Source: Thiobacillus sp. 65-29 (lineage in GTDB: Bacteria; Pseudomonadota; Gammaproteobacteria; Burkholderiales; Thiobacillaceae). From it: a DNA stretch of 39,138 nucleotides. The notes beneath the pieces are model-generated. The model was not told the origin of the DNA and ran no database searches. It worked only from the letters and a program-made list of their open reading frames with translations. The number at the start of each line of letters is the position of its first letter. The first letter of the stretch is position 1. Below, piece after piece: positions 6,392-28,579 of the stretch. The DNA is taken from contig MKWN01000045.1 of NCBI GenBank assembly GCA_001899775.1, forward strand, positions 1 to 39,138, written 5' to 3'. Position numbers and translations under genes: made by a program.

Positions 6392-9300
6392 GCTGGGCCG
6401 GGCGGCGGCTGCGGGCTGGAGTGATATTGCCCGTCCGCTTGCAGAAAGGTTTCGAGTCGCGCCCACAGGGCGGCACGAATCTCCGGATGGGAATCCGCCA
6501 GATCGTGCTGGCAGGCGGCATCCGCTTCGAGATCGAAAAGCTTCAGCAGATAGCCCGATTCCAGCGGCTGGTAAACAAGTTTCCAGCGCCGCTGGCGAAC
6601 CATCCGGTCCTTCGCATGCATGATGCGCTCGCAATACTGGGCCTTGATGGCGAGGGTACCGGTTTCGCGGTCGGGTACTTCCATGAGTTCGAGCAGATCC
6701 GGATAGCGAGGATGCGCGTGCGGCAGACCGGGAATGTCGGTAATCCAGATTCCGGTCTCGTTGTAGGCGTCGCTCTGCGGGCACGCGCTGGCCGGGTCGA
6801 AACAGGGCACCAGCGAAATGCCGTCCATGGGAGAGGCGGGTGCGGCGCCCACCAGTTCAAGCAGGGTCGGCGCCAGATCGATGCTGCGCACGACCTCGTT
6901 CACCGTACCCCGCGGCGGCCGCCGCGGGTCACGAATGACGAGCGGGATGCGCGGGCTGTAATCGCCCACGGCGGAATTGCCTTGTCCCCACGTGTCGTGC
7001 TCGAAGAATTCCATTCCATGGTCGGAGTAGACGACGACGATGGTGTTTTCCGCCAGACCGCATGCATCGAGATGCTGAAGCATCCGGCCGACTTCGTCGT
7101 CGAACTGGGCGACGCAACCGTCGTAGAGATCGATGATCTGGTCGAGATCGAACTCCTCCTTGGGCGCGCCCTGGCGGCGAATGATCTCGAACGGGTCGGT
7201 CAGTTTGGCCATCGCGAATTTCGAACTCCCGCGGTACGCGGGGTCGGCAAAGCGCGTATACCAGGGCCATTCGGAAGCGAACGGCGGGTGGGTCGTCGAG
7301 TAGAAGACGTTGAGAAAGAACGGCTCCGGACTGGCGGCAAGGCGCGAGACCAGCCGCCTCGCGCGGTGTCCCATCTGCGATGTCAGCGGCACGCCGCCGA
7401 GGTAATACAGCTCCGGCAGAAACAGCCGCCCCAGCCGGTTGTGGGTGAACAGCGAAATGAACAGGCGCAGATCCTTGGGGCCCTGGCGGATCAGGTACTT
7501 CAGGTTCCACTGGTCCTCGGGGAGATCCGTGTAATCGAAGCCGAACGACAGTTTGCCCAGGTCGGCACCGCACCAGTCCGACAGTGCGGCCGTTCGATAA
7601 CCAAGTGGCTTCAGGAGCTGCGGCAGCGCTGTCACCCGCAGGCGGGTTTCCGCATCCGCGACATAATTGTCGCGAATGCCATGGCGTTGCGGCCAGGTGC
7701 CCGTCAGCAGCGAGACGAGGCTGGGCGCGGTGCGTGCGCAGGGTACGTAGCAGTTGCCGAACAGGATGCCCGCCGAGGCGAGTGCGTCGATGTTCGGGGT
7801 AAGGGTACGGTGATAGCCGAGGGCACCGAGTCGGTCGGCGCGCAAGGTGTCGGAGCCGATCATCAGGATGTTCGGCATGTGTCCGCCTGAAGCTTTGAAC
7901 GTGCGTGGGGCACGGGCCCGGGGCATCCATCCGGCCCAGACGATGGTTGCGCCATATGCGATGCTGACTGCCCAGAACGTGATCAATTCCGCAAGCTGGT
8001 TCCGCGTCGCCAGTTTCCAGGACGCGCTGACGAACAGGACACCCGCCATCACGATCAGGCCGCCCTGCAAGGTGCGCAGACGCGCCGGTGTGGCGTGCGC
8101 CCAGAGCGGATAAAGCCGGCTGGGGCGATAGTGCATCGACGCGATCAGAAGCCCGGGGTTGAGCCGCAATTTGCGCACGAATTGCAGCGATGCGCCGCCC
8201 AGGACCCCGGTTGCCGCAGCGAGCGCCGCCAGCCAGCCGGACCCGCCGTGGCCCAGGACGATGTTGAGCGCGTGATAGACCAGCACGCCGCCGCCACCGG
8301 TGAACAGCATCAGCGCGAAGGCCCACAGCCCCAGGCGTGCCATCGTATAAAGGGTGTATCGCCGGTAGTGGTGCAGGATTTCCTTGCGGATGCGCGGACC
8401 CGTCTGGGAAAAATCCCGGAAGGATTTCGTCAGCAGGACGAGCGTGCCGGCGAGCGCCACGGCGGTGAGCGGCATCATCGTGGCTCCGCGGTGGCCGGCG
8501 CTCGTGAACCAGGCCAGCACGCCGCAGGAGATGATCAGCAGCGCGAGCAGCTCGACGGCGACACGGCCGCGATCCGCAGGAAGCGCAAGGCCGCGGCCGC
8601 GATGCCCCGATTCCCGTCTGCCCTGGATTTCGCCGATCGCCGCCGCCGTGCGAACCAGGTAAAAGCGCCGCTTGGCCCAGGAGAGGCTGAACAGGCTGTG
8701 GAAGCCATATTCGGCCATCTTGCGCCACATGAACAGCGGGATGCGTCCGGTGCCGTGAATGCGTGATGTGGACCGCGTGCGCTGATAGCTCTTTTTCAGG
8801 AGATAGCCGAGCTTGAGGCGCTCGGTGTCGACGTAGTGATGCTGAACGATGCGCGGCGCATACCGGCAGGATGCGCCACGCGCCATGGCGCGCAGGACGT
8901 ATTCGCTGTCCTCGCCACCGCCCAGGTCGTGTCCGTGCGGCCCCAGTTCGGTGGAGAATCGCCCGGCCAGATCGAATACGCCGCGGCGCACCACGAGGTT
9001 GCCGCCACCTGGAATCGGACCATGCTGGGCGGTGATCTCGCGCGGTGCGTCGCCCTGATCAAAACGCGGGACAGGCAGTGGATAGATGCGGTAAGGCCCG
9101 TCGTCATGCACCCAGGCCGGCTCGCTGCCGTCCCAGTCCGGCAGAATGCGCCCGCAGTACAGGCCGGCGTCGGGCCAGGTGCGTGCGGCTTCTTCGATGG
9201 CGACCAGGTAGTCCGCGTCGACGCGATGGTCGTCGTCGACAAAGGCGACCAGTTCGCTGTCGATGAGCGGAATGGCCTCGTTCAGCGCATGCGATTTTCC

Positions 9301-9522
9301 CGGGGTCGGGACCTCGATGACGCGCAGGGGCAGGTTGTCTTGGGTCGATTCATGTGTTGGGTAGGCGCGTAGTTGCGCCACGGTGTCATCCGTGCACGCG
9401 TTGGCCGCCACCAGAATCTGCACCGGCAGGGTAGGGCGGCGGGCCGCATTCAGGGAGCGGATGGCGCGCTGCAGCAGCTCGACCCGGTTGTGGGTGCAGA
9501 TGAGGACGGTAAGCCCTGTCAT
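6388..9522 (-). CDS. GT2 glycosyltransferase / membrane region / sulfatase-like fusion
   Basis: One uninterrupted frame encodes 1044 residues. Residues 1 to about 300 are a family 2 glycosyltransferase (LTVLICTHNRVELLQ, then VAFVDDDHRVD). Residues about 365-545 hold some six hydrophobic segments, for example ELLALLIISCGVLAWFTSAG and GGLIVMAGVLFVSASW. Residues 549-1044 are an alkaline-phosphatase-superfamily sulfatase-like domain (NILMIGSDTLRADRLGALGY; late metal site VVVYSDHGMEFF). The sulfatase signature C-x-P-x-R is not present; the corresponding segment reads T-A-P-S-L before VSLLTG. The start ATG at 9522 lies 2 bases after the previous stop. An internal ATG at 7878 has AGGCGG about 6 bases upstream, so a free sulfatase-like protein could also be made. 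The membrane part probably places the C-terminal domain outside the cytoplasm. Confidence 0.78.
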   Translation of the reverse strand: MTGLTVLICTHNRVELLQRAIRSLNAARRPTLPVQILVAANACTDDTVAQLRAYPTHESTQDNLPLRVIEVPTPGKSHALNEAIPLIDSELVAFVDDDHRVDADYLVAIEEAARTWPDAGLYCGRILPDWDGSEPAWVHDDGPYRIYPLPVPRFDQGDAPREITAQHGPIPGGGNLVVRRGVFDLAGRFSTELGPHGHDLGGGEDSEYVLRAMARGASCRYAPRIVQHHYVDTERLKLGYLLKKSYQRTRSTSRIHGTGRIPLFMWRKMAEYGFHSLFSLSWAKRRFYLVRTAAAIGEIQGRRESGHRGRGLALPADRGRVAVELLALLIISCGVLAWFTSAGHRGATMMPLTAVALAGTLVLLTKSFRDFSQTGPRIRKEILHHYRRYTLYTMARLGLWAFALMLFTGGGGVLVYHALNIVLGHGGSGWLAALAAATGVLGGASLQFVRKLRLNPGLLIASMHYRPSRLYPLWAHATPARLRTLQGGLIVMAGVLFVSASWKLATRNQLAELITFWAVSIAYGATIVWAGWMPRARAPRTFKASGGHMPNILMIGSDTLRADRLGALGYHRTLTPNIDALASAGILFGNCYVPCARTAPSLVSLLTGTWPQRHGIRDNYVADAETRLRVTALPQLLKPLGYRTAALSDWCGADLGKLSFGFDYTDLPEDQWNLKYLIRQGPKDLRLFISLFTHNRLGRLFLPELYYLGGVPLTSQMGHRARRLVSRLAASPEPFFLNVFYSTTHPPFASEWPWYTRFADPAYRGSSKFAMAKLTDPFEIIRRQGAPKEEFDLDQIIDLYDGCVAQFDDEVGRMLQHLDACGLAENTIVVVYSDHGMEFFEHDTWGQGNSAVGDYSPRIPLVIRDPRRPPRGTVNEVVRSIDLAPTLLELVGAAPASPMDGISLVPCFDPASACPQSDAYNETGIWITDIPGLPHAHPRYPDLLELMEVPDRETGTLAIKAQYCERIMHAKDRMVRQRRWKLVYQPLESGYLLKLFDLEADAACQHDLADSHPEIRAALWARLETFLQADGQYHSSPQPPPGPA

Positions 9523-9524
9523 GT

Positions 9525-10448
9525 TCAGCGTGTCGCGGGGCGCGGTCCCGCGATCCAGCCGGCGAGGTAGCCGAGGAAGTACGCGACGTTCATCTCCTTG
9601 CGCAGGGTGGTATTGCGCCCGGATGTGCGATATTCGCGCCACACGGCTCGCGCCGCGCGCAGGAGTTGTCCGAAAAGATAGCCGGGCGGCAGTCTGGAAC
9701 CCGCGCCGCGCTTGCGGATCGCCTCCATGCGTCCCATGCGGTAGTGCAGGTCGTGGAAATAGGACCGTTCCAGTTTGGCCGCCTGGATGCGGTGATGGAT
9801 CACCGCCTCGGGCGTCCACCACACCTTGAAGCCGGCGTCGAGCAAGCGGCGGTAGAACTCCACCTCCTCGCCGCCGGTGTTGTCGCTGCCTTTGCGGCCC
9901 AGCATGGCGTCGAAGTGGCCGATTGCCGAACACACGGATTTGCGGAATCCGAAGTTCCCTCCGAAGAACGACGTGCCCGGCTGCGTCAGTGGCGCAATGG
10001 ATTCGGCACGGTTCAGCTCGCCGAGAAAACCGAGCAGTTCGTCGGCAAGCCATGCCGGCCGGATGTCCTCGAACAGCACGCAAATGCGGCCGCCGAAGGC
10101 ATCCGGGTCCTTGTCGCGGATGAGCCGTTCGTACGCGCACAGCCAGTCCGGATCGGCGGTTTCGTCGTCGTCCATGAAGATTACATAGTCGCCCCGCGCT
10201 TCCGCGATGCCGCGGTTGCGGGCATTGGAAAGCCCGAGCTGTTCTTCGCGGACGATGCGCACGTTCCAGCCAGCGGGCCAGGCGTGCCGTGCCAGAAGCG
10301 CCGGCGTACCGTCCGTGCATCCATTGTCGATGATGAGGAATTCCCATGGTGCCTGCGGCGGCTTCAATGCAGCCAGATCGGCAAGGGTCCGCTCCAGACG
10401 GTCGGCGTGGTTGTGCGTGCAGAGAATGACGCTATAGGCTGGGTTCAT
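9525..10448 (-). CDS. GT2 family glycosyltransferase
   Basis: The 307-residue product has the family 2 opening YSVILCTHNHADRLERTLAD at residues 5-24. The motif IIDNGCTDGT and the acidic triad FMDDDETAD follow near residue 92. A conserved GGNFGFRKS and a GGEEVEF segment follow, typical of GT2 enzymes that use an ED-type catalytic region. The ATG at 10448 has a strong upstream GGGAGGGCGG and overlaps the preceding stop by 4 bases (ATGA). The product resembles the N-terminal GT2 half of the next gene, which begins 2 bases after its stop, so the two may act in succession on the same glycan. The sugar specificity is unknown. Confidence 0.87.
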   Translation of the reverse strand: MNPAYSVILCTHNHADRLERTLADLAALKPPQAPWEFLIIDNGCTDGTPALLARHAWPAGWNVRIVREEQLGLSNARNRGIAEARGDYVIFMDDDETADPDWLCAYERLIRDKDPDAFGGRICVLFEDIRPAWLADELLGFLGELNRAESIAPLTQPGTSFFGGNFGFRKSVCSAIGHFDAMLGRKGSDNTGGEEVEFYRRLLDAGFKVWWTPEAVIHHRIQAAKLERSYFHDLHYRMGRMEAIRKRGAGSRLPPGYLFGQLLRAARAVWREYRTSGRNTTLRKEMNVAYFLGYLAGWIAGPRPATR

Positions 10449-11260: not shown

Positions 11261-13390
11261 TCAGTCATGATTGCCGGATGTCTCGTCGATCCGCACCACC
11301 TGGTTTGATGCGACGTCATGGAGCACCTGTTCCCTGCCGTCGGGCCAGACGACGCGGAGGGTCGTGGCCTTGCCGTAAGCACCCAGACCAAAGTGAAGCG
11401 GCACGTCGTTCTGGGCAAAAAGCAGTTTCGTGCTTGCACCCGCTTCCTGGAGCTGCGTGCCTGCGGGTGTGGTGACGAAGACCTTCGCGCCGTAGCCGCT
11501 GCGGTTGCTTGCGTTTCCGGCAAGCCTCACCTTGATCCAGCGGTTGCCGTTGCCAGTGTTCCTCAGAAGGAAGTGCGTGCCAGGCGTCTTGCCCTTCATG
11601 AACGCCAGGATGCGAGCGGGCAGGGGCTCGGGCGCCGCCTTTGCGGCACCGGCGGCTGGCGGTTTCTGATGTTGGGGATCCTTGGGACGGCGGGTCGCGA
11701 GGAACAGATCAAGGAAGCCATCACCGTTGTAATCCATCCAGGTGGCAACCCCTCCGGCATGCGTGCGCAGGGACCACTCCAGCCGGTCGGTCAGTTCGAG
11801 GTTCATGGCGTGGGTGACGTCGACGAACGTGCCGTTGCCCTTGTTGCGATACAGCCGGTTCGAGGCGGGATGCGGGCTGATGGTGTACAGGTCGATGTGG
11901 CCGTCGTTGTCGAAATCGCCCCACAGCCCCTCGGTCACGTCCTGCAGGCCGCCCAGCCCGGCACGTGCGGTAACGTCGGTGAATTTTCCGTCGTGCCCCG
12001 CGAGGAGACGGCTTTCGCCGCCGCCGAGTCCGCTGGCGATGAACAGGTCCAGGTGCCCATCGTTGTTGAAATCGGCGACCGCCGCCCCGGAACCCCAGAA
12101 CAGCGCATCTTTCAGACTCGCGTAGCGGCGCGCATGTTTCAGGCCCGCCGCCTCGGTGACCTCGGCGAAATGGCCCTTGCCGTCGTTCAGGAAAAGCCGT
12201 TCCGGGTTGGAGAAGAGGATGTCGGGATGCCGGTCCCCGTTGAAATCGGCCCACACGAAATGGGTCGGGCCGGTGAGGTCGAGCCCGGCGCCGACAGCCG
12301 TTTCCTCGAACACGCCATGACCGAGATTGCGGAAGAGCAGATTCCTGCTGCCCAGGTTGCTGACGTACAGATCCAGCCGGCCGTCGTTGTCGTAGTCGAC
12401 CCACTGTGCGTCCCGCCCGCGCCCATAGTCGTTGCGAATACCGGATTCACGGATGACGTTGGTGAAGCGGGCGTCGGGACCGTTCCTGAACAGCTCCTCG
12501 TGTTTCGCGCCATGGGGTGGCTTCAGCAGGCCGACCATCGCTCCGCGCGTCACGAACAGATCCGTGCGGCCATCGTTGTCGAAATCGCCCCAGACCGTCG
12601 CGTGGCGGTCGCCCAGACTCAGTGAGAGCGGCAGCGCCGGCGGCGTGACGCCGCGCGGGCCGATGTGGACACGCTGCGGTTCGGCCTTGCCATCGTAGCG
12701 AAGATCGAACTCGACCGTGGATTCCGGGAAGGTGCTGGTGAAATCGATGCCCTTGGGTGTGCCATCGGCAACGCCGGTGAAATGGATCACACTCTCCTCG
12801 GTGCGCAGGGTGTCTGTCGCGGAAAAACCGACCTTCTCGGCGCGCGCGATCCTGGCGTTGGTGGTCAGCGTGCCGCTGACCGGCGTGGCCGCCGGCGCGA
12901 TCCAGCGAATATGCCAGGTGCCGCTGAGGCGGGTGGCGGGGTCGAGCCAGACGAAGAAACCGGGTGTTGCGGAAGAAATCCGTGGTGCCCCGAAGACCGG
13001 CCCGACCGGGTTTTCCAAAATGCCGATTTCCTCATACACCTCGGAAAACGTCGCGTCACCGTTGTTTCGGTAAAAGTATGGCCGGTGACGCTCGTGATTG
13101 TTGACGAACAGGTCGGCGTGGCCGTCATTGTCGTAATCCATCACGCTCACGCTGAACGTGCCCAGCCAGTTGGCCCCGGCGTGATGTCGCTTGAGGCCGG
13201 CGCGCGCCGTATCGTCGACGAATGTCTGGGTCAGGTTTCCGCGTAGCCGGTCATATCCGCCCTTGAGGTAGGGATAGAAGAGAAAACATCCAGCGGCGAT
13301 GGCGCCGACCGTTCCCAGCGCCAGGGCGACGCGCGGCCATTTCGGGCGTGAACGCGTGAAGGATGGACGGCTTTCGCTATGCGTTTTCAT
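11261..13390 (-). CDS. FG-GAP/VCBS repeat protein with C-terminal UnbV/ASPIC domain
   Basis: The 709-residue protein has a basic N-terminus and a single membrane segment (about residues 21-41). The rest is predicted to lie in the periplasm or outside the cell. Seven calcium-binding FG-GAP-type loops are visible, for example DYDNDGHADLF at 85-95, DFDNDGRTDLF near 269, DYDNDGRLDLY near 332, DFNNDGHLDLF near 440 and DYNGDGFLDLF near 553, consistent with a beta-propeller. The C-terminal part (about 610-700, NRWIKVRLAGNASNRSGYG and VVWPDGREQ) matches the UnbV/ASPIC domain often found after such repeats. Its function is not established. A carbohydrate-binding or scaffolding role is inferred from its place between glycosyltransferase genes. 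Confidence 0.85.
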   Translation of the reverse strand: MKTHSESRPSFTRSRPKWPRVALALGTVGAIAAGCFLFYPYLKGGYDRLRGNLTQTFVDDTARAGLKRHHAGANWLGTFSVSVMDYDNDGHADLFVNNHERHRPYFYRNNGDATFSEVYEEIGILENPVGPVFGAPRISSATPGFFVWLDPATRLSGTWHIRWIAPAATPVSGTLTTNARIARAEKVGFSATDTLRTEESVIHFTGVADGTPKGIDFTSTFPESTVEFDLRYDGKAEPQRVHIGPRGVTPPALPLSLSLGDRHATVWGDFDNDGRTDLFVTRGAMVGLLKPPHGAKHEELFRNGPDARFTNVIRESGIRNDYGRGRDAQWVDYDNDGRLDLYVSNLGSRNLLFRNLGHGVFEETAVGAGLDLTGPTHFVWADFNGDRHPDILFSNPERLFLNDGKGHFAEVTEAAGLKHARRYASLKDALFWGSGAAVADFNNDGHLDLFIASGLGGGESRLLAGHDGKFTDVTARAGLGGLQDVTEGLWGDFDNDGHIDLYTISPHPASNRLYRNKGNGTFVDVTHAMNLELTDRLEWSLRTHAGGVATWMDYNGDGFLDLFLATRRPKDPQHQKPPAAGAAKAAPEPLPARILAFMKGKTPGTHFLLRNTGNGNRWIKVRLAGNASNRSGYGAKVFVTTPAGTQLQEAGASTKLLFAQNDVPLHFGLGAYGKATTLRVVWPDGREQVLHDVASNQVVRIDETSGNHD

Positions 13391-13453: not shown

Positions 13454-14464
13454 TCATCGCGACGCATGATGGTGCGGGTTTTCCGGATGGCCTGACGAAT
13501 GTCTGCCGACCAGCCAGCGATGCAGGCGCCAGGGCAGCAGCGCGGGCAGCATGCGTTTCCAGTCCGTCGCGCTTCCGTAGCCACGTTTCATGACCTGGCG
13601 AAATATCGCGCGCGCAGAGTGCAGGTCGTCGCCCCAGTAGCACTGATAGCCCCGCCTGAGCATTTCGCCGACCGTAAGCTCGCGGAGTTTTCGCGCCCCC
13701 AGTGTCGTGCGAAGCGCCGGATTGTGCGCCAGAAAGTGCTCCTGGGCGCCGAGGTGGTTGACCGCCATGCGCAACAGATTGGCTGTCGCCCGCGGCCCTT
13801 CGTGGTGGAAGTAGAATGCCAGCACCTCGGGAACGCGAACGATCGGATGCCGCGCCACGATCTTCAGCCAGAGGAGAAAATCCTCGGAAGTCGGAAATTG
13901 CGGATTGAATCCCCCCGCGTCCCGGATGGCGGCGGTGCGGGTCAGTGCGGCGTGTATCGGCCAGCGGCAATTCTGTAGCCATCGTTCCATTTTTTCCGGG
14001 ATCTCGTAGTCGGGTGGAATGTAGGGCTCGCCCCGTTCGCCCGCGAGGCCGACATTCTGCCAGCCGCAATAGGCAAGTGCGGCAGAAGGCGTTCGCGAGA
14101 GCGCGTCGTGCAGACGTTCGAGGCAGTCGGGCGCCCAGGTGTCGTCCGAATCGAGGAAGGCGATGCAGGCACCGCGCGCTTCGCGGATGCCGCGATTGCG
14201 CGCTGCGCAGACGCCTTCGTGCTTCTGCTCGATGACACGGACGCGGGCGTCCCCGACGGCGTGTGCGATGGCGAGGCTGTCATCGTCCGAGCCATCGTCG
14301 ACCAGGATGAGTTCGAGCCTGTTGAACGACTGGCCCCGCACGCTCTCGATGGCGCGTGAGAGGAACGCGCCACCATTGTAGTTCGGCATGATGACGGAAA
14401 TCACTGGCGTGCCGGCGTCGCCACCGGCGTGCGCCGGGAGCAACTTTTCCCGTGACTCATTCAT
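13454..14464 (-). CDS. GT2 family glycosyltransferase
   Basis: A 336-residue GT2 enzyme. ISVIMPNYNGGAFLSRAIES starts the fold at about residue 22, LVDDGSDDDS follows, and the DxD-type motif is LDSDDTW near residue 108. Its C-terminal helical region (GYQCYWGDDLHSARAIFRQ and the following leucine-rich stretch) resembles that of the GT2 at 19748-20716, so the two are likely paralogues. The ATG at 14464 lies 8 bases inside the end of the upstream sulfotransferase gene. A 63-base gap separates it from the FG-GAP gene. Soluble; the substrate is unknown. Confidence 0.87.
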   Translation of the reverse strand: MNESREKLLPAHAGGDAGTPVISVIMPNYNGGAFLSRAIESVRGQSFNRLELILVDDGSDDDSLAIAHAVGDARVRVIEQKHEGVCAARNRGIREARGACIAFLDSDDTWAPDCLERLHDALSRTPSAALAYCGWQNVGLAGERGEPYIPPDYEIPEKMERWLQNCRWPIHAALTRTAAIRDAGGFNPQFPTSEDFLLWLKIVARHPIVRVPEVLAFYFHHEGPRATANLLRMAVNHLGAQEHFLAHNPALRTTLGARKLRELTVGEMLRRGYQCYWGDDLHSARAIFRQVMKRGYGSATDWKRMLPALLPWRLHRWLVGRHSSGHPENPHHHASR

Positions 14465-15251
14465 AGCCGTAGCGTCTCATTTCGGCATCCACGATGCGGG
14501 ACAGACGCCGTCGTTCCATGAAGCCGAGCCCCTGGTCATGGTGGCTTTGCCAGTCCGCCCGGTTCACTTGCGTGAACTGGCCGGACAGGTCGGCGACGCC
14601 GATGTGGCGGCCCAGCCGTTCCTGGGCCTGAGTGTCCGAAACCAGATCCTCGTACTTGACGAGCTGACCGAAGTCCGCGGCGCGGAATTCACCGGCGAGC
14701 CGCGCCCAGTGGCGCGCGTAATATTCGAGAGCCTGCGGGTCGCCGGGCCGGTCGAGCCAGTCGCGCCGCTTGATTGACGTCAGGCAGTCGTACGGATGGC
14801 GCACCAGGAAAATGAAGTGGGCAGCCGGGTAGAGTTGGTGCAGGAAGCGTGCGGCTTCGATGCCCGACTGCACTTCCTTGATGCCCCAGCGCGCGTAGCC
14901 GAGCTCGGCAGCGGGACGCGCGTAAACGCTGTCGAAAAATGAGTGGAACGCATTTCTGAATACGCCCGCGGGGGGATTCATGCACGCAATCCACTTGTTG
15001 AAACCGTCCTTGCCGGCGGCCGTGAAAGCTTCGTATTCCTTGGCGCCGTTTCCACCGAAGCCATGCTTGAAGCGCTGGCCGCCCGGGCCGAGCATCTGCT
15101 CGTAACAGGCGTGCGTATCGGCAAGCCGATCCAGCGCGCCGCCGGCCTCGCCCCAGATCAGTGCCGCCTGCGTTCCCGTGATGAGCCGCTGCAGCATGGT
15201 GCTGCCTGAGCGCCAGCCGGCGGAGAAGATGAAGATGGGTTGGTCCGTCAC
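14457..15251 (-). CDS. Sulfotransferase family protein
   Basis: From GTG at 15251 the product is 264 residues and starts directly at the first strand of the fold. The PAPS 5'-phosphosulfate loop is at residues 7-22 (FIFSAGWRSGSTMLQR). The 3'-phosphate site is IFLVRHPYDCLTSIKRR (147-163), with R151 and S159 as expected contacts. A longer frame to 15341 would overlap the upstream glycosyltransferase gene and adds a segment with no fold, so the GTG is preferred; AGGAAC lies about 9 bases before it. It belongs to the minus-strand polysaccharide run and is the second of three sulfotransferase-fold proteins in the island. The acceptor is unknown. Confidence 0.82.
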   Translation of the reverse strand: MTDQPIFIFSAGWRSGSTMLQRLITGTQAALIWGEAGGALDRLADTHACYEQMLGPGGQRFKHGFGGNGAKEYEAFTAAGKDGFNKWIACMNPPAGVFRNAFHSFFDSVYARPAAELGYARWGIKEVQSGIEAARFLHQLYPAAHFIFLVRHPYDCLTSIKRRDWLDRPGDPQALEYYARHWARLAGEFRAADFGQLVKYEDLVSDTQAQERLGRHIGVADLSGQFTQVNRADWQSHHDQGLGFMERRRLSRIVDAEMRRYGYE

Positions 15252-15297
15252 GGCGTCAGGTTCCTGTGCGTGGTGCGTGCCGGGAGAAGAAAACGGG

Positions 15298-16461
15298 TCA
15301 TCGCCACAGTCCTGCCAGCGACGCCCAGCGACCGACCGCATCCTCGCCGCGCATCAGCACCGATCGTCGGTTCAGTTTTTTCGGATTCTTCGCCACGTTG
15401 TATTCCGAGTACATCAGCACGTCCAGCAGCGTGTCGTCACGTACCTCGATCTTTTCGACGAAGGTTTCGGGACGCAGGTTTTGTTCGTAATATTTCACGG
15501 CATTGTCGCGCAGCTCGGCTTTTTGGGCCTCGCTCATTTCGAGGGCCAGATGGATCTTTTCGATCAGGTCGTCCTCATTGTCGAAAACGATGCAGTTCTT
15601 CATGTGTTCGAGTCGGGGAGAGATCCACTCCGGATAGCTGGTGATCGGAATCGTGCCGATGGCCATCGCCTCGATGAGATTGTGGGACATCGGCATGACG
15701 ATTCCCGGCGGGCAAAGAAAGAAATCCGCACGTGCGATGACGTCCATCCAGCGATCCCACGGAACCCGGGCGCCGTCGTTGTCGACGAGGACGAATTTTC
15801 GCACGTACGTGGAATCCAGCAGGCGCGCCAGGTCTTCAGCCGTCATCGCAAGTTCGAGACGGTCGCCCAGGCGCGCCTTCACCGTCGAGATGACGTCGAT
15901 GCGCGAGAGCTTTTCCTTTGGATGCTTGATCCATCGCCGTTTGTATCCCTGCATGTCGCCTGCGAAAAGGACCCGGAGCCGGCGCGGGAGATTTCTCAGC
16001 GCATGCAGACTCTCGCCGGTAACGCGGGTGGCGTGCATCGGATGCACGTTATAGGGGAGCAGGACCGGCTTCGAGAAATGGAAGGGCGAAAACAGGTCGA
16101 AGCGGATCCGCAGGCACTGGCGCCAGGAACGGGCGCCGAGTCCGGCGTCCTTCCTGTCGAAAATATAGAGGCCCCTTTCAGCCGCAGGCGGCGGCGACGC
16201 GACGATTTCGAGGCCTGGCAGGGACATGGCCAGCCGTGCGGGAGGCGGCCAGTCCGCCACGGAATCACCGAAGAGTTCCGCCAGCCGTTGCCGCACCGTG
16301 TCGTCGAGGCACACCCGATATCCCGCGAGCAGAAACGGATTCAGGACCGCGAAGATGTGGCGGCCGTTCTCGCGGTAAGTTTCCGCTTCCAGAAACTTCA
16401 CGTAGACGATCTTTTTTTCACTGCCTTGCATCGATTGTCGGTGTCCTTCCTGTGTTGTCAT
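15298..16461 (-). CDS. Exostosin-like / GT-B glycosyltransferase
   Basis: The 387-residue protein lacks membrane segments. Its C-terminal half resembles exostosin-type and GT-B donor domains: an acidic FVLVDNDGARVPWDRWMDVI, then FFLCPPGIVMPMSHNLIEAM, then GTIPITSYPEWISP, in the order expected for a nucleotide-sugar site (S/C-P-x-G and the later conserved Glu). The N-terminal half is not recognisable to me. ATG at 16461 is used. A second ATG at 16431 has GGAAGGA upstream but 13 bases away. A longer frame to 16569 would run into the preceding gene. It should transfer a sugar in the cytoplasm, probably for the same glycan as its neighbours. Family assignment is tentative. Confidence 0.6.
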   Translation of the reverse strand: MTTQEGHRQSMQGSEKKIVYVKFLEAETYRENGRHIFAVLNPFLLAGYRVCLDDTVRQRLAELFGDSVADWPPPARLAMSLPGLEIVASPPPAAERGLYIFDRKDAGLGARSWRQCLRIRFDLFSPFHFSKPVLLPYNVHPMHATRVTGESLHALRNLPRRLRVLFAGDMQGYKRRWIKHPKEKLSRIDVISTVKARLGDRLELAMTAEDLARLLDSTYVRKFVLVDNDGARVPWDRWMDVIARADFFLCPPGIVMPMSHNLIEAMAIGTIPITSYPEWISPRLEHMKNCIVFDNEDDLIEKIHLALEMSEAQKAELRDNAVKYYEQNLRPETFVEKIEVRDDTLLDVLMYSEYNVAKNPKKLNRRSVLMRGEDAVGRWASLAGLWR

Positions 16462-16525
16462 TGTCACAGCATACGGTCCGCCAGGTCCCTGCAATTGCCA
16501 TTCTGCGGTGAGGACGGGGGCGGAT

Positions 16526-17833
16526 TCATTGTATGACCTGGGCGTCGGATTCGACCGCGACGCAGCCATGGGTCAGGTGTTCCGTGTTGTAGCGGAGCGC
16601 CTGGCCGGTGTGGCAGTCGTAGACGCGCTTGCCGGCCGTCGTCGCGATGAGCTGCGCGGCCGCGGTCTGCCATTCCCGGCATGCATCGTTGCAGATGCAC
16701 GACGCCATCCGGTTCGCGGCAACGCAGCACATCCTGAGTGCAAGGCTTCCGTCGTTCGTCAGGGGGAATGCGTGAGCGGCATCGATGGTGCCGGGCGCCG
16801 CGTCCGCGCCGAGTTGTTGCGGTGCGTCGCTGCCGTGCGCCATGAAGGCGCCCTGTCCCAGGCGGGCGTAAAAGGCCGTGTCGGTCACGGGAGCGTAGAC
16901 CACACCGTAGATTGGCACGCCGTCCTGAACCAAGGCGATGTTTACCGTGAAGTGCCCGGTCCCGGCGAGAAACCCGGCAACGCCATCGAGCGGATCCACG
17001 AGCCAGACGTGGTTCCATCTGGCACGGTCGTGGTGGGAAACGGCAGGGGTTGAGGCGGACAGCATCGGGACCTGGGGATTGAGCGTGCTCAATCCTTCCG
17101 CGATCAGGTCATGGGTCTTGCGGGCGGTCCGCTCCACGGCAGCCGCATCGCCGCCGCGCAAGGTTCGCAGCGCCTGCTGCAACGGGCGGGCCGAGCGCTG
17201 CGCCTCGCAGGCTTTCAAGGCGGCGCGCCCCGCCTCCCTGGCGATCGCCACGATGTCGTTGATGTTCATCCAACTGATCTGGGTGACGTTGGCCTTGGGG
17301 AAGGGCAGGTCCGGTGCGGCACAGCCGAGAAACGGACACAGCTTTTCCCACCCCTCGCCGGCGGTCACATCGATGACCAGAAGATCGCCCGGCCGATCCC
17401 TGAAATAGTCCAGGACGCCGCGAACGAATCTGTCATATCCGTCGCGAAAGCGTTGTTCTTCGAATGCCGTGCAACCGTAGAGATCCAGGAAAAGCTGGTT
17501 GTGCGCCTCGTTCTGTTTGGCGGCGAGCTTCTCATTGAACTGCTTCTTGCAGGACTTCAGCCAGCCTTCGGCTGCGCGCACCGTCAGAATGAATTTCGCG
17601 CCCGGATAGCGTTGGTCCAGCTCGCGGTAGAAGCTGGGGATGGGCGTATCGGTCAGGGCGTCGTACGCATCGACCACCGCGAGATCGACGGATGACAGGT
17701 CCCCTGCGCGATAACGGCTGAGACCCGGATAGTCCTTGGTTCTGTAGCCCAGAATTTCGAGCGCGTGTGCAAGACTGGTGGTTCCGGTCTTCGACAGGCC
17801 GATACCGAATATCTTGGGGCGGGTCGCGGTCAT
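16526..17833 (-). CDS. Sulfotransferase fused to degenerate CysQ-like domain
   Basis: The 435-residue protein has two domains. Residues 1 to about 185 are a sulfotransferase: the PAPS loop is at 10-21 (GIGLSKTGTTSL) and FILTVRAAEGWLKSC at 81-95 is the 3'-phosphate site. Residues about 190-435 resemble CysQ, the 3'-phosphoadenosine 5'-phosphate phosphatase that clears the by-product of sulfation. Conserved landmarks are AREAGRAALKACE, WLVDPLDG (277-284), HFTVNIALVQDG and VVYAPV. Catalytic positions differ from active family members: the SEE motif is SAS at 259-261, DGT is DGV at 283-285, and WDTAA is WQTAA at 388-392. The second domain may therefore bind PAP without cleaving it. ATG 17833 overlaps the flippase stop by 4 bases. 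Confidence 0.82.
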   Translation of the reverse strand: MTATRPKIFGIGLSKTGTTSLAHALEILGYRTKDYPGLSRYRAGDLSSVDLAVVDAYDALTDTPIPSFYRELDQRYPGAKFILTVRAAEGWLKSCKKQFNEKLAAKQNEAHNQLFLDLYGCTAFEEQRFRDGYDRFVRGVLDYFRDRPGDLLVIDVTAGEGWEKLCPFLGCAAPDLPFPKANVTQISWMNINDIVAIAREAGRAALKACEAQRSARPLQQALRTLRGGDAAAVERTARKTHDLIAEGLSTLNPQVPMLSASTPAVSHHDRARWNHVWLVDPLDGVAGFLAGTGHFTVNIALVQDGVPIYGVVYAPVTDTAFYARLGQGAFMAHGSDAPQQLGADAAPGTIDAAHAFPLTNDGSLALRMCCVAANRMASCICNDACREWQTAAAQLIATTAGKRVYDCHTGQALRYNTEHLTHGCVAVESDAQVIQ

Positions 17834-19332
17834 TGATCAGTCCTTTTCGGATGGGGGAGCAGGGAGGAAGGGAGCCGGAGGGCGCGCGCCGCCTGCCGGC
17901 GCCATCGTTCCGCTTCGCCCCGCAAGGCGGGAATGGGCAGGAACAGGAACATCGCCGCATACAGCACCGTCCCGATGAGGGCCATCAATGCCAGATAGGC
18001 CAGCGGCACGGTGTTCCGGTAAGCGGCGAGCAGGGTGTCGGCGAGTGCAAGCAGGGCGAACAGCATCACGTTCAAAGCCAGGCCCGGCAGGATGGCAGGG
18101 AGCAAGTCCCGTGCGCGCGTACGCAGGGTGCGGCAGACCAGGATATGGACGGCGGTCGTACCGAAGAAATAGCTGAAGACCAGCCCCCAGGCCACGCCGG
18201 TGAGCCCCCACCGCAGACCGATGTAGCAGGCGGCCAGAATGACGAACAGGCGCGCGACGAGCACGTACATTTCCTGGGTGAGCCGGTTCCGTGCATCGAG
18301 CAGGACGCCGCTGGGGAACATCACCGTAAAAAACAGCCCGGCGATGACCAGTATTCGCATCGGTTCGGCCACGGGGAGCCATTTCTCACCGTAGACCACT
18401 GCAATGAACGGTTCGGCCGTCCACCACATGCCGACGTAAAGCGGCGTCGTGTACACCATCAACAAGGTGATCGACCGGTAGTACAGGTAGCGGGTCTGGT
18501 CGAGGTCGTCCTGGATCTTGCCCATTGCGCGGAACAGGGGCTGCATGGTTGCCGGCATGACAAGATCGTTGGGCATCCGCCCGAGGCTTTCGCTCTTGTT
18601 GAAAAGACCGAGGAAGGAGGCGCCGGCGAGCTTGCTGAGCAGGAGATTCTTGCTTTCCCGCGTGAGGTAGCCAAGAAAGTCGTTGACCGTGATCTTGAAG
18701 CCATAGCTGCTGTGGCGCCGCATCGCGGCGATGTCGAAGCTGGGGCGCAGCTTCAGCGGGGTGATCAGCATCAGCAGCAGGTTGTTGACGAATGCGCCGA
18801 CCAGTCCCGAAGCGACCAGGCTCCAGACACCGAAGCCGCGCCAGGCCATCCACACCCCGCAGACGCCCGTGACGAGTCCGGTGACGACCGCTGCGAACGA
18901 GCGTTTCCTGAAGTCCATCTCGCGGTTGAGCCAGGCCGTGCGCATGAGCGCCGACGGGCGCAGGAAAAACACCAGCGCGGAGACGCGCAGCAGATCGGCA
19001 TACAGCGGGTGATGGAAATAGTCGGCGACGAAGGGCGCGGCGGCGAACAGAAGGGCGTAGAGCATGGCGCTGAGCGCCATCTGCATGGTGAAGATGGCGC
19101 GAAAATCCTGTTCGGTCGCGCTTTGGGCGCGGATCAGCGACTGTCCCATGCCGCCGCTCATGATCATGCCGGCAAATCCCGTGAAGACGGAGATGGTGAC
19201 CATCATGCCGAAATCGGCCGGCACGAGCAGACGCGCCAGCGCAATGCCGAATGCGAATTCGAGGAAGCGGCGTCCGACATTGCCGGCCAGCAACCAGGCA
19301 GTCCCCCTGCGGATGCGTTGGCCGAGGTTCAT
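17830..19332 (-). CDS. Wzx-type polysaccharide flippase
   Basis: A 500-residue integral membrane protein with roughly 12-14 hydrophobic helices, of the polysaccharide transport/MOP exporter family. It moves lipid-linked oligosaccharide across the inner membrane. The N-terminal signature (IRRGTAWLLAGNVGRRFLEF, then LARLLVPADFGMMVTISVF) and the central FLGLFNKSESLGRMPNDLV are typical of this family. Length is usual. It is the second gene of the minus-strand run and is followed by the sulfotransferase/CysQ fusion with a 4-base overlap. No Wzy polymerase is seen in the window, so polymerisation genes must lie elsewhere or use another route. Confidence 0.87.
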   Translation of the reverse strand: MNLGQRIRRGTAWLLAGNVGRRFLEFAFGIALARLLVPADFGMMVTISVFTGFAGMIMSGGMGQSLIRAQSATEQDFRAIFTMQMALSAMLYALLFAAAPFVADYFHHPLYADLLRVSALVFFLRPSALMRTAWLNREMDFRKRSFAAVVTGLVTGVCGVWMAWRGFGVWSLVASGLVGAFVNNLLLMLITPLKLRPSFDIAAMRRHSSYGFKITVNDFLGYLTRESKNLLLSKLAGASFLGLFNKSESLGRMPNDLVMPATMQPLFRAMGKIQDDLDQTRYLYYRSITLLMVYTTPLYVGMWWTAEPFIAVVYGEKWLPVAEPMRILVIAGLFFTVMFPSGVLLDARNRLTQEMYVLVARLFVILAACYIGLRWGLTGVAWGLVFSYFFGTTAVHILVCRTLRTRARDLLPAILPGLALNVMLFALLALADTLLAAYRNTVPLAYLALMALIGTVLYAAMFLFLPIPALRGEAERWRRQAARALRLPSSLLPHPKRTDQ

Positions 19333-21319: not shown

Positions 21320-22861
21320 ATGAAGACCGTGCCGGCCCTTCTCATCATCCTCGACGGCTTCGGCTGCCGTGCCGAACGTGCCGACAATGCCATCGCCCAG
21401 GCGAACAAGCCGAACTTCGACCGTCTGTGGAAGGAATGCCCGCACACCGAAATCCACGCCTCCGAGTCGGAGGTCGGCCTGCCCAAGGGTCAGATGGGCA
21501 ATTCCGAGGTCGGACATCTCAACATCGGCGCGGGACGTGTGGTGTACCAGGAATTCACCCGCATCGACCGCGCCATCGAGTCCGGGTATTTCTACGCCAA
21601 TCCGGCGCTCCTCAACGCCGTGCATCTGGCGCGCGACCACGGCAAGACGCTGCATGTGCTGGGCCTGCTGTCCGACGGCGGGGTGCACAGTCACGAAACG
21701 CATTTTCACGCGCTGCTCGATCTGGCCGCGCGCGAAAACCTGCACAAGGTGTGTCTGCACGTGTTCCTCGACGGCCGCGACACCCCGCCCAAGAGCGCCG
21801 AAATCTACCTGCACCGCCTCCTCGGCAAGATCGAACAGACCGGTGTCGGTCACATCGCGTCGATGATCGGCCGCTACTACGCCATGGACCGGGACCGCCG
21901 CTGGCAGCGGGTGAAGGCCGCCTACGACCTCCTCACTCAGGGGCGCGCCGAGTTCCGGGCGGAGAATCCGCTCGCCGGACTGGAGGCCGCCTATGCGCGC
22001 GGGGAAACCGACGAGTTCGTCAAGGCTACCGCCATCCTGCCACCCGACGGCAAACCGGTGACAATGGAAGATGGCGACGCGGTGGTGTTCCTCAACTTCC
22101 GCTCCGACCGCGCGCGGCAGTTGTCGCGGCCATTCATCGAAAAGGATTTCGGCGAGTTCGAGCGTGAAGTCACGCCGCGCCTCGCCACCTATTGCACCCT
22201 TACCGGCTACAGCGACGATTTCGATGTCTCCGTGGCCTTTCCGCCCGAGCGCATCAAGAACGGGCTGGGCGAATACGTCGCCAACCTCGGCCTGCGCCAG
22301 TTACGCATCGCCGAGACGGAGAAATATCCGCACGTCACCTTCTTCTTCAACGGCGGCGAGGAGATATCCGCCCCCGGCGAGGACCGCGTGCTGGTGTCAT
22401 CGCCCGACGTCGCCACCTACGACCTGAAGCCAGAAATGAGCGCCTTCGAGGTGACGGCCAAGCTGGTCGCGGCGATCGAGGGCAAGCAGTACGACCTCAT
22501 CATCTGCAACTATGCCAATCCCGACATGGTCGGCCACACCGGCGATCTGGCGGCGGCGACCCGGGCGATCGAGACGGTCGACATCTGCCTGGGCAAGGTG
22601 GTCGCCGCGCAACTCGCGCGCGGCGGCGAGGTCCTCATCACCGCCGACCATGGCAACGCCGAACTGATGCGCGATGCGGTCACCGGGCAGCCGTACACCG
22701 CCCATACCATGAACCTGGTGCCGTTCATCTACGTCGGGCGTCGCCGCGCCAGCGTGGCCGAGACCGGTGCGCTGGAGGACATCGCCCCCACCCTGCTCGA
22801 CATGATGGGGCTCCCCAAGCCGCCGGAAATGACCGGTCAGTCCCTGCTCCATTTCGAGTGA
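21320..22861 (+). CDS. gpmI: 2,3-bisphosphoglycerate-independent phosphoglycerate mutase
   Basis: The 513-residue enzyme interconverts 3- and 2-phosphoglycerate in glycolysis and gluconeogenesis, using two manganese ions and a phosphoserine intermediate. D12 opens the metal site (LIILDGFG). The phosphorylated serine is S62 in GQMGNSEVGHLNIGAGR. FLDGRDTPP and NYANPDMVGHTG carry substrate and metal ligands, and the C-terminal TADHGNAE holds the remaining metal residues. Length is normal for the family. ATG 21320 is the only sensible start because it lies directly before the first strand. The envC-like gene follows 30 bases later, so they probably share a transcript. It acts in the cytoplasm. 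Confidence 0.97.
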   Translation: MKTVPALLIILDGFGCRAERADNAIAQANKPNFDRLWKECPHTEIHASESEVGLPKGQMGNSEVGHLNIGAGRVVYQEFTRIDRAIESGYFYANPALLNAVHLARDHGKTLHVLGLLSDGGVHSHETHFHALLDLAARENLHKVCLHVFLDGRDTPPKSAEIYLHRLLGKIEQTGVGHIASMIGRYYAMDRDRRWQRVKAAYDLLTQGRAEFRAENPLAGLEAAYARGETDEFVKATAILPPDGKPVTMEDGDAVVFLNFRSDRARQLSRPFIEKDFGEFEREVTPRLATYCTLTGYSDDFDVSVAFPPERIKNGLGEYVANLGLRQLRIAETEKYPHVTFFFNGGEEISAPGEDRVLVSSPDVATYDLKPEMSAFEVTAKLVAAIEGKQYDLIICNYANPDMVGHTGDLAAATRAIETVDICLGKVVAAQLARGGEVLITADHGNAELMRDAVTGQPYTAHTMNLVPFIYVGRRRASVAETGALEDIAPTLLDMMGLPKPPEMTGQSLLHFE

Positions 22862-22891
22862 ACGCGGGACGTCTGCGTTAAGCTTCGCCGG

Positions 22892-24145
22892 GTGAAGCTG
22901 CGCTCCTTTTTTGCCCTCGCGGTACTGACCCTGCCACTGGCCGCCGTAGCCGACTCGGTTGCCGGCAGACAGTCCGAACTCGACGCCCTCAAGCGCCGCC
23001 TCGACGCCCTGCAACAGGAGGCCCGTCACACCGAGGCGACCCAGAAAGAGGCCGCCGACGAACTGCGCGCATCCGAGCGTGCCATCAGCGATGCGGTGCG
23101 GGCCCTGCGCGAACTGGACAGCGCGCGCCAGCAGACCAGCGGCGATCTCGCCGCGCTGAACCGTCAGGCGGAAAGCGTCGAGGCACGGGTGCGCGCGCAG
23201 CAGGTCCGCCTGGCGGATGCCTTGCGCGCGGCACACCGGCGCGGCGAGGCGGACGCCCTGCGCCTGCTGCTCGACGGCAACGACCCCAACCAGACCGCGC
23301 GCGAACTGCGGTACCTCGCGCACATTTCGCGCGCCCAGCAGGGGCAGATCGAAGCGCTGCGCAGCGAGCTCGCCACGCTTGCCGCCCTGCGCGACAGGAT
23401 CGAGCAGAAGAACGCCCGCCTCGTGCAGCTGCGCACGGCACGCGAGACCGAGCAGCAAAGGTTGTTCGCCGAGCGCACGGCGCGCGCACAGGTGCTCGAC
23501 ACGCTCTCCGCGCAGATTCGCCGGCAGCGGCGTGAAATCAGCACTTTGCAGCGCGACGAGCGCAACCTCACGCAACTGGTCGAGCGGCTCAACCGGCTGA
23601 TGGCGCAGCAGGCCGCGCGCGACGCGGCACGCGCCCGTGCCGCACGCGAGGCGCAGGCCAAGGCCAGGGCGCCGGGGCGCGCAGCGCCCGATGCGCCGCG
23701 GCCGCCGCTGGCGGTGAACACCGAAACCCCGGTGCCGTTTCGTGCCGACCGGCCGTTTTCGCAACTGCGGGGCAGCCTGCGGCTGCCGGTGCCCGGGGAA
23801 CTCATGAACCGGTTTGGCGCTCCGAGGGAGGATGGCGGCGTGAGCTGGAAGGGCGTGTTCATCCGCGCCGCGCAAGGCACCGCGGTCAAGGCGATCGCGG
23901 CCGGAAGGGTGGTGTTTTCCGAATGGCTGCGCGGCTTTGGCAACCTCATCATCGTCGACCACGGCGAAGGCTACATGAGCCTGTACAGCAACAATGAAAG
24001 TCTGTATAAGCAGGTGGGCGAGCAGGTCCAGCCCGGCGATGCGATCGCCACGGTCGGCAACAGCGGTGGCCAGCCCGATACCGGTCTGTATTTCGAAATG
24101 CGGCACCAGAGCCGCCCCCTGAATCCCCTGGTGTGGGTGAAATAA
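22892..24145 (+). CDS. EnvC-type murein hydrolase activator
   Basis: The 417-residue protein starts at GTG 22892 with a signal peptide (residues 1 to about 21, FFALAVLTLPLAAVADS). A long coiled coil follows (about 24-245), then an Ala/Pro-rich linker and a C-terminal LytM/M23 domain (about 300-417). The zinc ligands of active M23 peptidases are not seen: the HxxxD segment is replaced by the sequence around GVSWKGVFIRA. This is typical of EnvC, which activates cell-wall amidases at the division septum rather than cutting the wall itself. It acts in the periplasm. Position between gpmI and ctpA fits a conserved betaproteobacterial gene order. The ctpA start lies 3 bases after its stop. Confidence 0.86.
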   Translation: MKLRSFFALAVLTLPLAAVADSVAGRQSELDALKRRLDALQQEARHTEATQKEAADELRASERAISDAVRALRELDSARQQTSGDLAALNRQAESVEARVRAQQVRLADALRAAHRRGEADALRLLLDGNDPNQTARELRYLAHISRAQQGQIEALRSELATLAALRDRIEQKNARLVQLRTARETEQQRLFAERTARAQVLDTLSAQIRRQRREISTLQRDERNLTQLVERLNRLMAQQAARDAARARAAREAQAKARAPGRAAPDAPRPPLAVNTETPVPFRADRPFSQLRGSLRLPVPGELMNRFGAPREDGGVSWKGVFIRAAQGTAVKAIAAGRVVFSEWLRGFGNLIIVDHGEGYMSLYSNNESLYKQVGEQVQPGDAIATVGNSGGQPDTGLYFEMRHQSRPLNPLVWVK

Positions 24146-24148
24146 GCA

Positions 24149-25564
24149 ATGACGCAAAAGACAAAACTCATTCTTGTCGGCCTGGCGGGCCTCGTCGCCG
24201 GCGCCGCGCTGACCGTCAATCTCTCGGCCATCGCCAACAAGTCGGCCGACACGCCGCTGCCGGTCGAGGAGCTGCGCGCCTTCACCGAAGTGTTTGCACG
24301 CATCAAGAGCGACTACGTCGAGCCGGTCGAGGACAAGAAGCTCATCAACGAGGCCATCAACGGCATGCTGACCGGGCTCGATCCGCATTCGGCGTATCTC
24401 GATGCCGAAGCCTTCAAGGACCTGCAGGTCGGCACCCAGGGCGAATTCGGCGGCCTGGGCATCGAGGTCGGCATGGAAGACGGCTTCGTCAAGGTGGTCG
24501 CACCGATCGAGGACACCCCGGCGTTCAAGGCCGGCGTCAAGGCGGGCGATCTCATCGTCAAGCTCGACGACACGCCGGTCAAGGGCATGACGCTGAACGA
24601 CGCGGTCAAGCGCATGCGCGGCAAGCCCGGCTCGTCGATCAAGCTCACCATCGCACGCAAGGGCGTGGACAAGCCGGTCGTCCTTACCCTCACCCGCGCC
24701 GTCATCAAGATCCGCAGCGTCAAGTCGACCATGCTGGACTCCGGCTACGGCTACGTGCGCGTCACCCAGTTCCAGGAACACACCGGCGAACTGCTCGTCG
24801 AGGCGCTGCAGAAACTCTACAAGGACAACAAGGCGCCATTGAAAGGTCTCATCCTCGACCTGCGCAACGACCCCGGCGGCCTGTTGAACGGTGCCGTCGC
24901 CGTCACCGCGGCCTTCGTCAAGCCGGACAGCCTCGTCGTCTACACCGAGGGCCGCACCGAGGATGCGCGCATGCGCCTCACCGCCAGTCGCGAACACTAC
25001 CTGCGCCCGATGCAGATGGACTTTCTGAAGGACCTGCCCGAAGGCGTCAAGCAGGTGCCGATGGTGGTGCTGGTCAACGGGGGTTCCGCCTCGGCCTCCG
25101 AAATCGTCGCCGGCGCGCTGCAGGACCACAAGCGCGCGGTGGTCATGGGCACCCGCACCTTCGGCAAGGGCTCGGTGCAGACCATCCTGCCGCTCGGCAA
25201 CAGCACCGCGATCAAGCTCACCACCGCACGCTATTTCACGCCGAGCGGCCGCTCCATCCAGGCCAAGGGCATCGAACCTGACATCACCGTCGAGGATCCC
25301 GCGATGCCTGAATCGGAAGAGAGCTTCGGTATTCGCGAGGCCGATCTCGACAAGCATCTGGCCAACCCGGCGGGATCGGAACCGGCGCCCGCCCCCGCAC
25401 CGGCGAAGCCAGCCGACACGATCAAGGCGCCGCCCGCGGACAAGCCGGGCAAGGGGAAGAAGGCCACCCCGCTCGAACCGGGCGAGATCGTGTCGAAGAA
25501 CGATTTCCAGGTGAACCAGGCGCTCAACCTGCTGAAAGGCCTGCAAATCCTGCAGGGGCGCTGA
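24149..25564 (+). CDS. ctpA: C-terminal processing peptidase, S41 family
   Basis: The 471-residue serine protease trims or degrades envelope proteins from their C-termini. One membrane segment or signal anchor spans residues 7-27. A PDZ domain lies at about 98-170 (GEFGGLGIEV and KAGDLIVKLDD). The catalytic Ser is S315 within GGSASASEIVAGAL and the general base is K340 in GTRTFGKGSVQT. Q344 is the third conserved residue, with spacings equal to those of E. coli Prc. The tail is rich in Pro, Lys and Ala. It is expected to work in the periplasm, with wall-hydrolase regulators as possible clients given the adjacent EnvC-type gene. Confidence 0.94.
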   Translation: MTQKTKLILVGLAGLVAGAALTVNLSAIANKSADTPLPVEELRAFTEVFARIKSDYVEPVEDKKLINEAINGMLTGLDPHSAYLDAEAFKDLQVGTQGEFGGLGIEVGMEDGFVKVVAPIEDTPAFKAGVKAGDLIVKLDDTPVKGMTLNDAVKRMRGKPGSSIKLTIARKGVDKPVVLTLTRAVIKIRSVKSTMLDSGYGYVRVTQFQEHTGELLVEALQKLYKDNKAPLKGLILDLRNDPGGLLNGAVAVTAAFVKPDSLVVYTEGRTEDARMRLTASREHYLRPMQMDFLKDLPEGVKQVPMVVLVNGGSASASEIVAGALQDHKRAVVMGTRTFGKGSVQTILPLGNSTAIKLTTARYFTPSGRSIQAKGIEPDITVEDPAMPESEESFGIREADLDKHLANPAGSEPAPAPAPAKPADTIKAPPADKPGKGKKATPLEPGEIVSKNDFQVNQALNLLKGLQILQGR

Positions 25565-25633
25565 CGCGGCGACGGGGCTTCCCCCGGCCGCGGTTGGCGC
25601 TATACTGAACCCCTGCTGTCCGGATGGGATACC

Positions 25634-26029
25634 ATGCGCCCCTGCGACCTCGAGAAAATTCGTGAGATCGTCTTCCACGAACTGCCGGTGGGCCAGGCCG
25701 CGCGCGCGCACGTGCTGCTGCAGGGCCTGGAAGGCCTGAGCGTGACGTGCCGGGAGGACGGGCGCTGTCTGGTGGTACGCTACAGCGTCTGTGAATATAC
25801 CCTCGAAGGTCTGGAGACCGCGCTCGCGCATCAGGGTTTCCACCTCGACAACAGTCTGCTGTCGAAGCTTCGGCGCGCCATGGCCTATTTCTGCGAGAGC
25901 GTGCAGCGACGCAACGTCGCCGCCAACGAACCCGACATCAAGTCGCAGCGCGCGTTCATGCGCGTCTACGAATCCCATCTGCACGGCGACCGCGACGACA
26001 CCCCGGAAGAATGGCGCCGCTACAAGTAG
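25634..26029 (+). CDS. Small conserved protein with HMA-like fold, no CxxC
   Basis: I cannot name a function for this 131-residue soluble protein. Residues about 22-72 show the beta-alpha-beta-beta-alpha-beta pattern of heavy-metal-associated domains, for example LQGLEGLSVTCREDGRCLVV followed by LEGLETALAHQGFHLD. The metal-binding CxxC at the end of the first strand is missing. The C-terminal third is charged and helical, with conserved-looking tryptophan and arginine residues near the end. ATG 25634 has GGGATACC just upstream. A TATACT hexamer at 25601-25606 could be a -10 element but lacks a clear -35. It is flanked by ctpA and moeB and ends 10 bases before the latter, so it is probably cotranscribed with it. 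Confidence 0.7.
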   Translation: MRPCDLEKIREIVFHELPVGQAARAHVLLQGLEGLSVTCREDGRCLVVRYSVCEYTLEGLETALAHQGFHLDNSLLSKLRRAMAYFCESVQRRNVAANEPDIKSQRAFMRVYESHLHGDRDDTPEEWRRYK

Positions 26030-26039
26030 CGCCTTCCCC

Positions 26040-28542: not shown

Positions 28543-28579
28543 AAAGACTTATTATAGTCTTTATTCAGTCTTGTTGCAA
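28543..28579 (-). promoter_or_regulatory. Promoter and palindromic operator of phd/parE-type operon
   Basis: On the minus strand, TTGCAA (28579-28574) and a perfect TATAAT (28556-28551) are 17 bases apart. The -10 sits inside a perfect inverted repeat AAAGACT-TATTAT-AGTCTTT at 28543-28562. Binding of the antitoxin there would block RNA polymerase, as known for Phd autoregulation. The -35 lies inside the last codons of jetD. Confidence 0.72.

Follow-up and report, generated by a model that had tools for sequence, protein, structure and literature searches.

Why should an enzyme that produces 3'-phosphoadenosine 5'-phosphate (PAP) carry at its C-terminus what looks like a disabled relative of CysQ, the phosphatase of PAP? 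The question is raised by a gene in a contig of Thiobacillus sp. 65-29 (MKWN01000045.1, 39,138 nucleotides; this whole stretch is referred to as the window). The gene (positions 16526..17833, minus strand) is an uninterrupted ATG frame encoding 435 residues, a Sulfotransfer_4 domain followed by a domain which we call pseudo-CysQ. We found that the second domain has lost catalytic residues and substrate motifs of CysQ, and that losses of the same kind are shared by all seven distinct fusions recovered: those of the window, G394, L005, L006, G692, G648 and L004 (G numbers are handles for genomes and L numbers for loci). The answer towards which we lean is that the protein is an active exopolysaccharide sulfotransferase whose pseudo-CysQ half, joined and then degraded, serves as a scaffold or docking domain.

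A sulfotransferase fused to a CysQ-like domain

The original prediction described a fusion of a sulfotransferase with CysQ, and this is borne out by the open frame of 435 residues and by both Pfam domains. Residues 7-184 (17282..17815, minus strand) match Sulfotransfer_4 (PF17784, E 3.9e-35; 122.1 bits against a cut-off of 22.8), and residues 195-410 (16604..17251, minus strand) match Inositol_P (PF00459, E 3e-29, above the Pfam cut-off). A structure model gives the latter region an inositol monophosphatase fold, and the C-terminal half thus belongs to the PF00459 superfamily by Pfam cut-off and by fold. The domains are separated by a short linker (17252..17281, minus strand) in which I186, W188 and M189 are common to at least six of the seven fusions. 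Both domains score above their Pfam cut-offs in each of the seven, and the NCBIfam model that fits the second half best is in every case CysQ (TIGR01331), with 125.3 bits in the window and 84.5 to 155.0 bits in the other six; every one of these scores falls under the equivalog cut-off of 228.8 bits, and E. coli CysQ, as a control, scores 376.4 bits.

The sulfotransferase half contains a GLSKTGT P-loop, TDTP with D62, R86, S94 and GEGWEKLCPFL, motifs whose roles we presume in part from general knowledge. GLSKTGT, TDTPIPS, R86/S94 and GEGW-LC are found in each fusion whose sequence covers this part, slightly altered in G648 (GDDW, PIPVTN); L006 is without its first 22 residues, as its N-terminus is cut by the contig. 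The site for 3'-phosphoadenosine 5'-phosphosulfate (PAPS) had been predicted to be intact, and the presence of the P-loop, R86/S94 and D62 agrees with this. In a schistosome sulfotransferase the acceptor hydroxyl contacts Asp91, according to PMC4618941, and the Asp of TDxP falls in the aligned stretch of that residue, a match made by stretch and not by residue numbering. From these motifs we infer an active, PAPS-dependent sulfotransferase, which probably adds sulfate to a surface sugar.

Loss of the CysQ active site

In the alignment with CysQ, the metal-binding EE pair is replaced by A260-S261 (17051..17056), the water-activating Thr of DPLDGT by V285 (16979..16981; D280 and D283 of the same motif are kept) and the metal-binding Asp of WDTAA by Q389 (16667..16669), all on the minus strand. 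These are exactly the three substitutions first noted, and as the alignment is in register, acidic residues that have merely shifted are ruled out in the window. The losses extend further: the Asp of TAAD has become Ala, other residues stand in for the G, both S and the K of GSSLK and for the R of YPR, and little is left of the SRSH stretch.

The lithium-inhibited phosphatase family has the signature D..EE..DPIDST..D, which according to PMC7948987 covers three metal sites and the water-activating Thr. All seven signature residues are kept in 27 of 27 free CysQ sequences, a set selected partly by its DPxDGT and GS[SA]LK columns, a filter failed by a single CysQ-half locus, itself truncated by a contig end; the fusions keep two or three. 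The window keeps two (A, A S, D D V, Q), and the corresponding letters are SPESDAE in L004, DRLDDEH in both L005 and L006, TRDDDAK in G394, ARCDDDH in G692 and REKDKKE in G648; owing to alignment gaps, the first letter is uncertain for L005 and L006. For this comparison INPP1 D54 was matched to CysQ D41 by motif and by what we take to be their correspondence. The signature Thr and the final Asp are kept in none of the fusions, and the two E residues never occur together (L004, L050 and L055 each have one acidic residue at the pair, never two). None of the three metal sites described in PMC7948987 has its full set of protein ligands in any fusion. Six of the seven fusions keep D280 and six keep D283, one of these aspartates being lost in L004 and one in L050.

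A domain that is still a phosphatase, acting through other residues or on another substrate, could draw on the DPLDG aspartates that remain in most fusions and on acidic residues that some fusions have at the lost positions or close by (SPE and WES in L004, SEK and WEI in L050, SRD in L055). Against this stand the universal loss of the paired E residues, the Thr and the WDTAA Asp, and the incomplete metal sites, and we regard such activity as highly improbable. The predicted loss of catalytic residues is therefore upheld, and it is shared in kind by seven fusions. As six other fusions show the same kind of loss, the changes in the window are not due to chance, and decay in a single genome is ruled out.

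The residues which we take, partly from general knowledge, to contact PAP have fared no better. G179, S180, K183 and R197 (E. coli numbering) are present in 27 of 27 free CysQ sequences and S181 in 25 of 27; not one of the five is kept in any fusion. In the gapped SRSH stretch, S155 is kept in no fusion, R156 in one, and S157 and H158 in two each, and between column 112 and W204 every fusion has a shorter segment, of 70 to 88 residues as against 92 to 109 in free CysQ. The SRSH, GSSLK and YPR motifs, all near-invariant in the free CysQ set, are thus not intact in the fusions.

These losses bear on the suggestion, made in the original prediction, that the domain has become a PAP sensor or allosteric regulator, which still binds PAP (or PAPS or AMP) and tunes the sulfotransferase. 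A PAP-related domain is indeed attached to a PAP-producing enzyme, D280 and D283 persist in most fusions, and the genome of the window (G000) has no CysQ above cut-off and a single DHH match, such that PAP could build up. The suggestion is nevertheless weakened, as the substrate motifs have been lost along with the catalytic ones and as the DPLDG aspartates themselves are incomplete in L004 and L050; we now consider it decidedly unlikely. The pseudo-CysQ domain may bind PAP in another mode, or may control sulfation allosterically.

CysQ above cut-off is present in G648 and G692 and was found in none of G000, G394, G309, G308, G307 and G408, several assemblies being incomplete; the fused domain is thus neither always a stand-in for CysQ nor always redundant with it. 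Adenosine 5'-phosphosulfate (APS) kinase gives a strong match in G000, G394, G309, G308, G648 and G692 and a weak one in G408. The DHH match of G000 lies in a frame of 585 residues, taken by its length as RecJ, and no second DHH protein was found in that genome.

Fold, ancestry and selection

An AlphaFold2 model built from four sequences (mean predicted local distance difference test score, pLDDT, 77) has a C-terminal domain whose best match, with both aligners used, is Bacteroides CysQ (3b8b). On this model, the pseudo-CysQ domain keeps its fold. Among 67 near-invariant columns of CysQ, 24 persist in at least six fusions and 12 in none, and W80 and W204 of E. coli CysQ are kept in all seven. 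N274, H275, S363 and A365 are residues specific to the fusions. A quick tree that also included free CysQ and three inositol monophosphatases, rooted at the midpoint, groups the fusions in one clade (SH-like approximate likelihood ratio test support 99), the place of which among CysQ is unsure; L050 is a very long branch.

Rates of nonsynonymous (dN) and synonymous (dS) substitution were estimated by the Nei-Gojobori method (NG86). For L005 and L006, dN and dS are 0.07 and 0.64 in the N-terminal half and 0.23 and 0.89 in the C-terminal half; for the window and G394 the values are 0.16 and 1.29, and 0.41 and 1.80, respectively. The majority of the remaining pairs are at or near saturation. This suggests that both halves are under constraint, the C-terminal half less so, with purifying selection in two pairs.

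The C-terminal half might be a relaxed leftover, a passenger without a partner that decays slowly and is kept only since its deletion destabilises the sulfotransferase. Its faster evolution, the segment shortened in every fusion and the very long L050 branch are in keeping with such decay; the dN/dS of those two pairs (about 0.2 to 0.3), the retention of both tryptophans and a frame open in seven of seven fusions are not, and we judge this explanation unlikely. As far as can be told from residues and substitution rates, the fused CysQ half is a real dead domain, shared among relatives and under constraint.

Recurrence of the fusion

A scan of contigs gave three relatives: L004 in a metagenome-assembled genome (MAG) of Desulfobacula, and L005 and L006 in MAGs of uncultured Burkholderiales. 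Within the family of the window, 10 of 117 genomes match the sulfotransferase half at 1e-15; G000, G394, G309 (the protein of L005) and G308 (the protein of L006) hold fusions, the match in G307 is truncated at the end of its contig, and the five others lie in frames of 200 to 244 residues that contain no CysQ half. Within the class, 7 of 369 genomes match at 1e-30, the fusions being those of the window, G692 and G648 and the other four being sulfotransferases alone. The single match at 1e-40 among 398 genomes of the phylum sample is the window itself, and in the class of G408, the Desulfobacula genome, the two matches among 241 genomes at 1e-25 are L004 and a frame of 197 residues. No intact fusion that might represent an evolutionary intermediate was found with the sulfotransferase half as query at these cut-offs in these samples, which are overlapping and partial.

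When the whole protein was searched against 300 genomes of the order, two of the matches listed, G224 and G284, span the domain boundary; their DNA reads as a sulfotransferase alone and as an intact free inositol-phosphatase homologue, respectively. G173, G082, G404 and the second gene of G231 were also rejected, being without a CysQ half. The sulfotransferase half has matches in 22 plasmid records, none reaching 60% identity (the best 8 of 22 listed).

The Desulfobacula fusion (L004, 9164-11293, plus strand) is longer, at 709 residues, with about 270 extra N-terminal residues containing a GERNSGT motif that, we presume, resembles a sulfotransferase P-loop. Its Sulfotransfer_1 match is weak and below cut-off, and the extension alone (279 residues) has no Pfam match at 0.01. 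The GC content of L004, from a MAG of unstated completeness, is 0.38, compared with 0.42 and 0.44 at two other G408 loci, 0.64 in the window and 0.64 to 0.65 in the family of the window. This speaks against an origin in that family; mis-binning into the Desulfobacula MAG is a less likely possibility. The same dead domain in relatives from distant bacteria suggests that it has probably been kept for a new, non-catalytic job.

Gene neighbourhood and a candidate partner

The start codon of the fusion gene overlaps the stop codon of an upstream polysaccharide flippase gene (Polysacc_synt_3, 17830..19332, minus strand) as ATGA, and the fusion gene is therefore probably part of a polysaccharide operon; in L004, too, a flippase gene immediately precedes the fusion. 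The cluster further contains a second sulfotransferase (Sulfotransfer_3 by Pfam, 14457..15341, minus strand), family 2 glycosyltransferases, a polysaccharide deacetylase and a fusion of a family 2 glycosyltransferase with a sulfatase.

A companion glycosyltransferase gene (15298..16431, minus strand; start codon uncertain, 16431 to 16569) recurs at each of the seven loci that carry the fusion, its homologues having 39 to 61% identity with the copy in the window, and in six of them it lies directly downstream of the fusion. At 1e-20 it occurs in 4 of 117 genomes of the family, all with the fusion; in a fifth genome, G307, the fusion is cut off by the end of the contig. A model of the protein (pLDDT 70.8) gives weak fold matches with GT-B enzymes on top, and its Pfam hits are below cut-off, for which reasons we assign it to no numbered family.

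We propose that a CysQ-type PAP phosphatase was joined to the C-terminus of a sulfotransferase, probably once, and that it would then have lost metal binding, water activation and its usual substrate motifs, with the fold retained. The resulting scaffold might stabilise the sulfotransferase, or might anchor it on the companion glycosyltransferase or on the glycan of that enzyme, in which case one sugar could be sulfated upon addition. The narrower version, in which the pseudo-CysQ domain docks the sulfotransferase onto the companion glycosyltransferase or nascent glycan, coupling sulfation to one glycosidic step, and both genes spread together between Pseudomonadota and Desulfobacterota, is put forward tentatively, as a possibility that we do not favour over its negation.

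Several observations weigh against a scaffold or docking role. Relative to dS, the C-terminal half evolves about twice as fast as the N-terminal half, which fits a weak or replaceable role. Both DPLDG aspartates are among the 24 kept columns; the old active site is thus not wholly erased. In G648 the companion glycosyltransferase lies about 2.2 kb off, on the other strand. Finally, the two genes do not simply co-evolve: the closest copy of the window glycosyltransferase is that of L004 (61%), whereas for the sulfotransferase half of the window it is that of G394 (80%).

Other genes of the window may be recorded here. The glycosyltransferase-sulfatase fusion is a frame of 1319 residues (6388-10347, minus strand), and activities that add and remove sulfate may thus be encoded in one cluster. 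FG-GAP/ASPIC proteins, 27 to 46% identical, lie near the fusion in three loci (window 11261-13390, minus strand; L005 971-3052; L069 4930-6939). A frame of 1214 residues (22397-26041, minus strand) has no Pfam match at 1e-3. At 28565-35284 (minus strand) there is a complete Wadjet set, with strong PADLOC type 1 matches for JetD, JetC, JetB and JetA, beside an HsdM-type methylase (35646-37232).

Significance and comparison with known systems

We found no report in the open-licence full-text literature of a dead PAP phosphatase domain fused to a PAP-making enzyme; a sulfated capsule cluster described in PMC11766843 has CysQ as a separate gene. Should docking or control be the reason for its retention, the domain would offer a natural way into the question of how bacteria direct sulfate to particular sugars, of relevance to the making of sulfated polysaccharides. 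Annotation by domain alone would label these fusions as PAP phosphatases, and caution is needed on that account.

Members of the Sulfotransfer_4 family (PF17784), including SgdX2 (PDB 8y9p), 9kf1 and the schistosome sulfotransferase SULT-OR (4mua), share with the fusions the P-loop, the arginine-serine motif, the TDxP Asp and GxGWxxLCxFL, but the fusions add the pseudo-CysQ domain, and examined relatives at 48% identity or less are without a CysQ half. CysQ itself, the 3'(2'),5'-bisphosphate nucleotidase (TIGR01331; PDB 3b8b, 5djg), resembles the second half in fold, top profile, core sequence and close tree position; the fusions differ in scoring below the equivalog cut-off, in keeping two or three of seven signature residues, in having lost the substrate motifs and in the attached sulfotransferase. 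A parallel for an inositol monophosphatase fold put to other use is SuhB, a Nus factor (PDB 6ib8, 6tqn), which has the same fold and, according to the PDB entry titles and PMC6614801, serves in a transcription complex; unlike pseudo-CysQ, SuhB is free-standing and belongs to another branch of the family.
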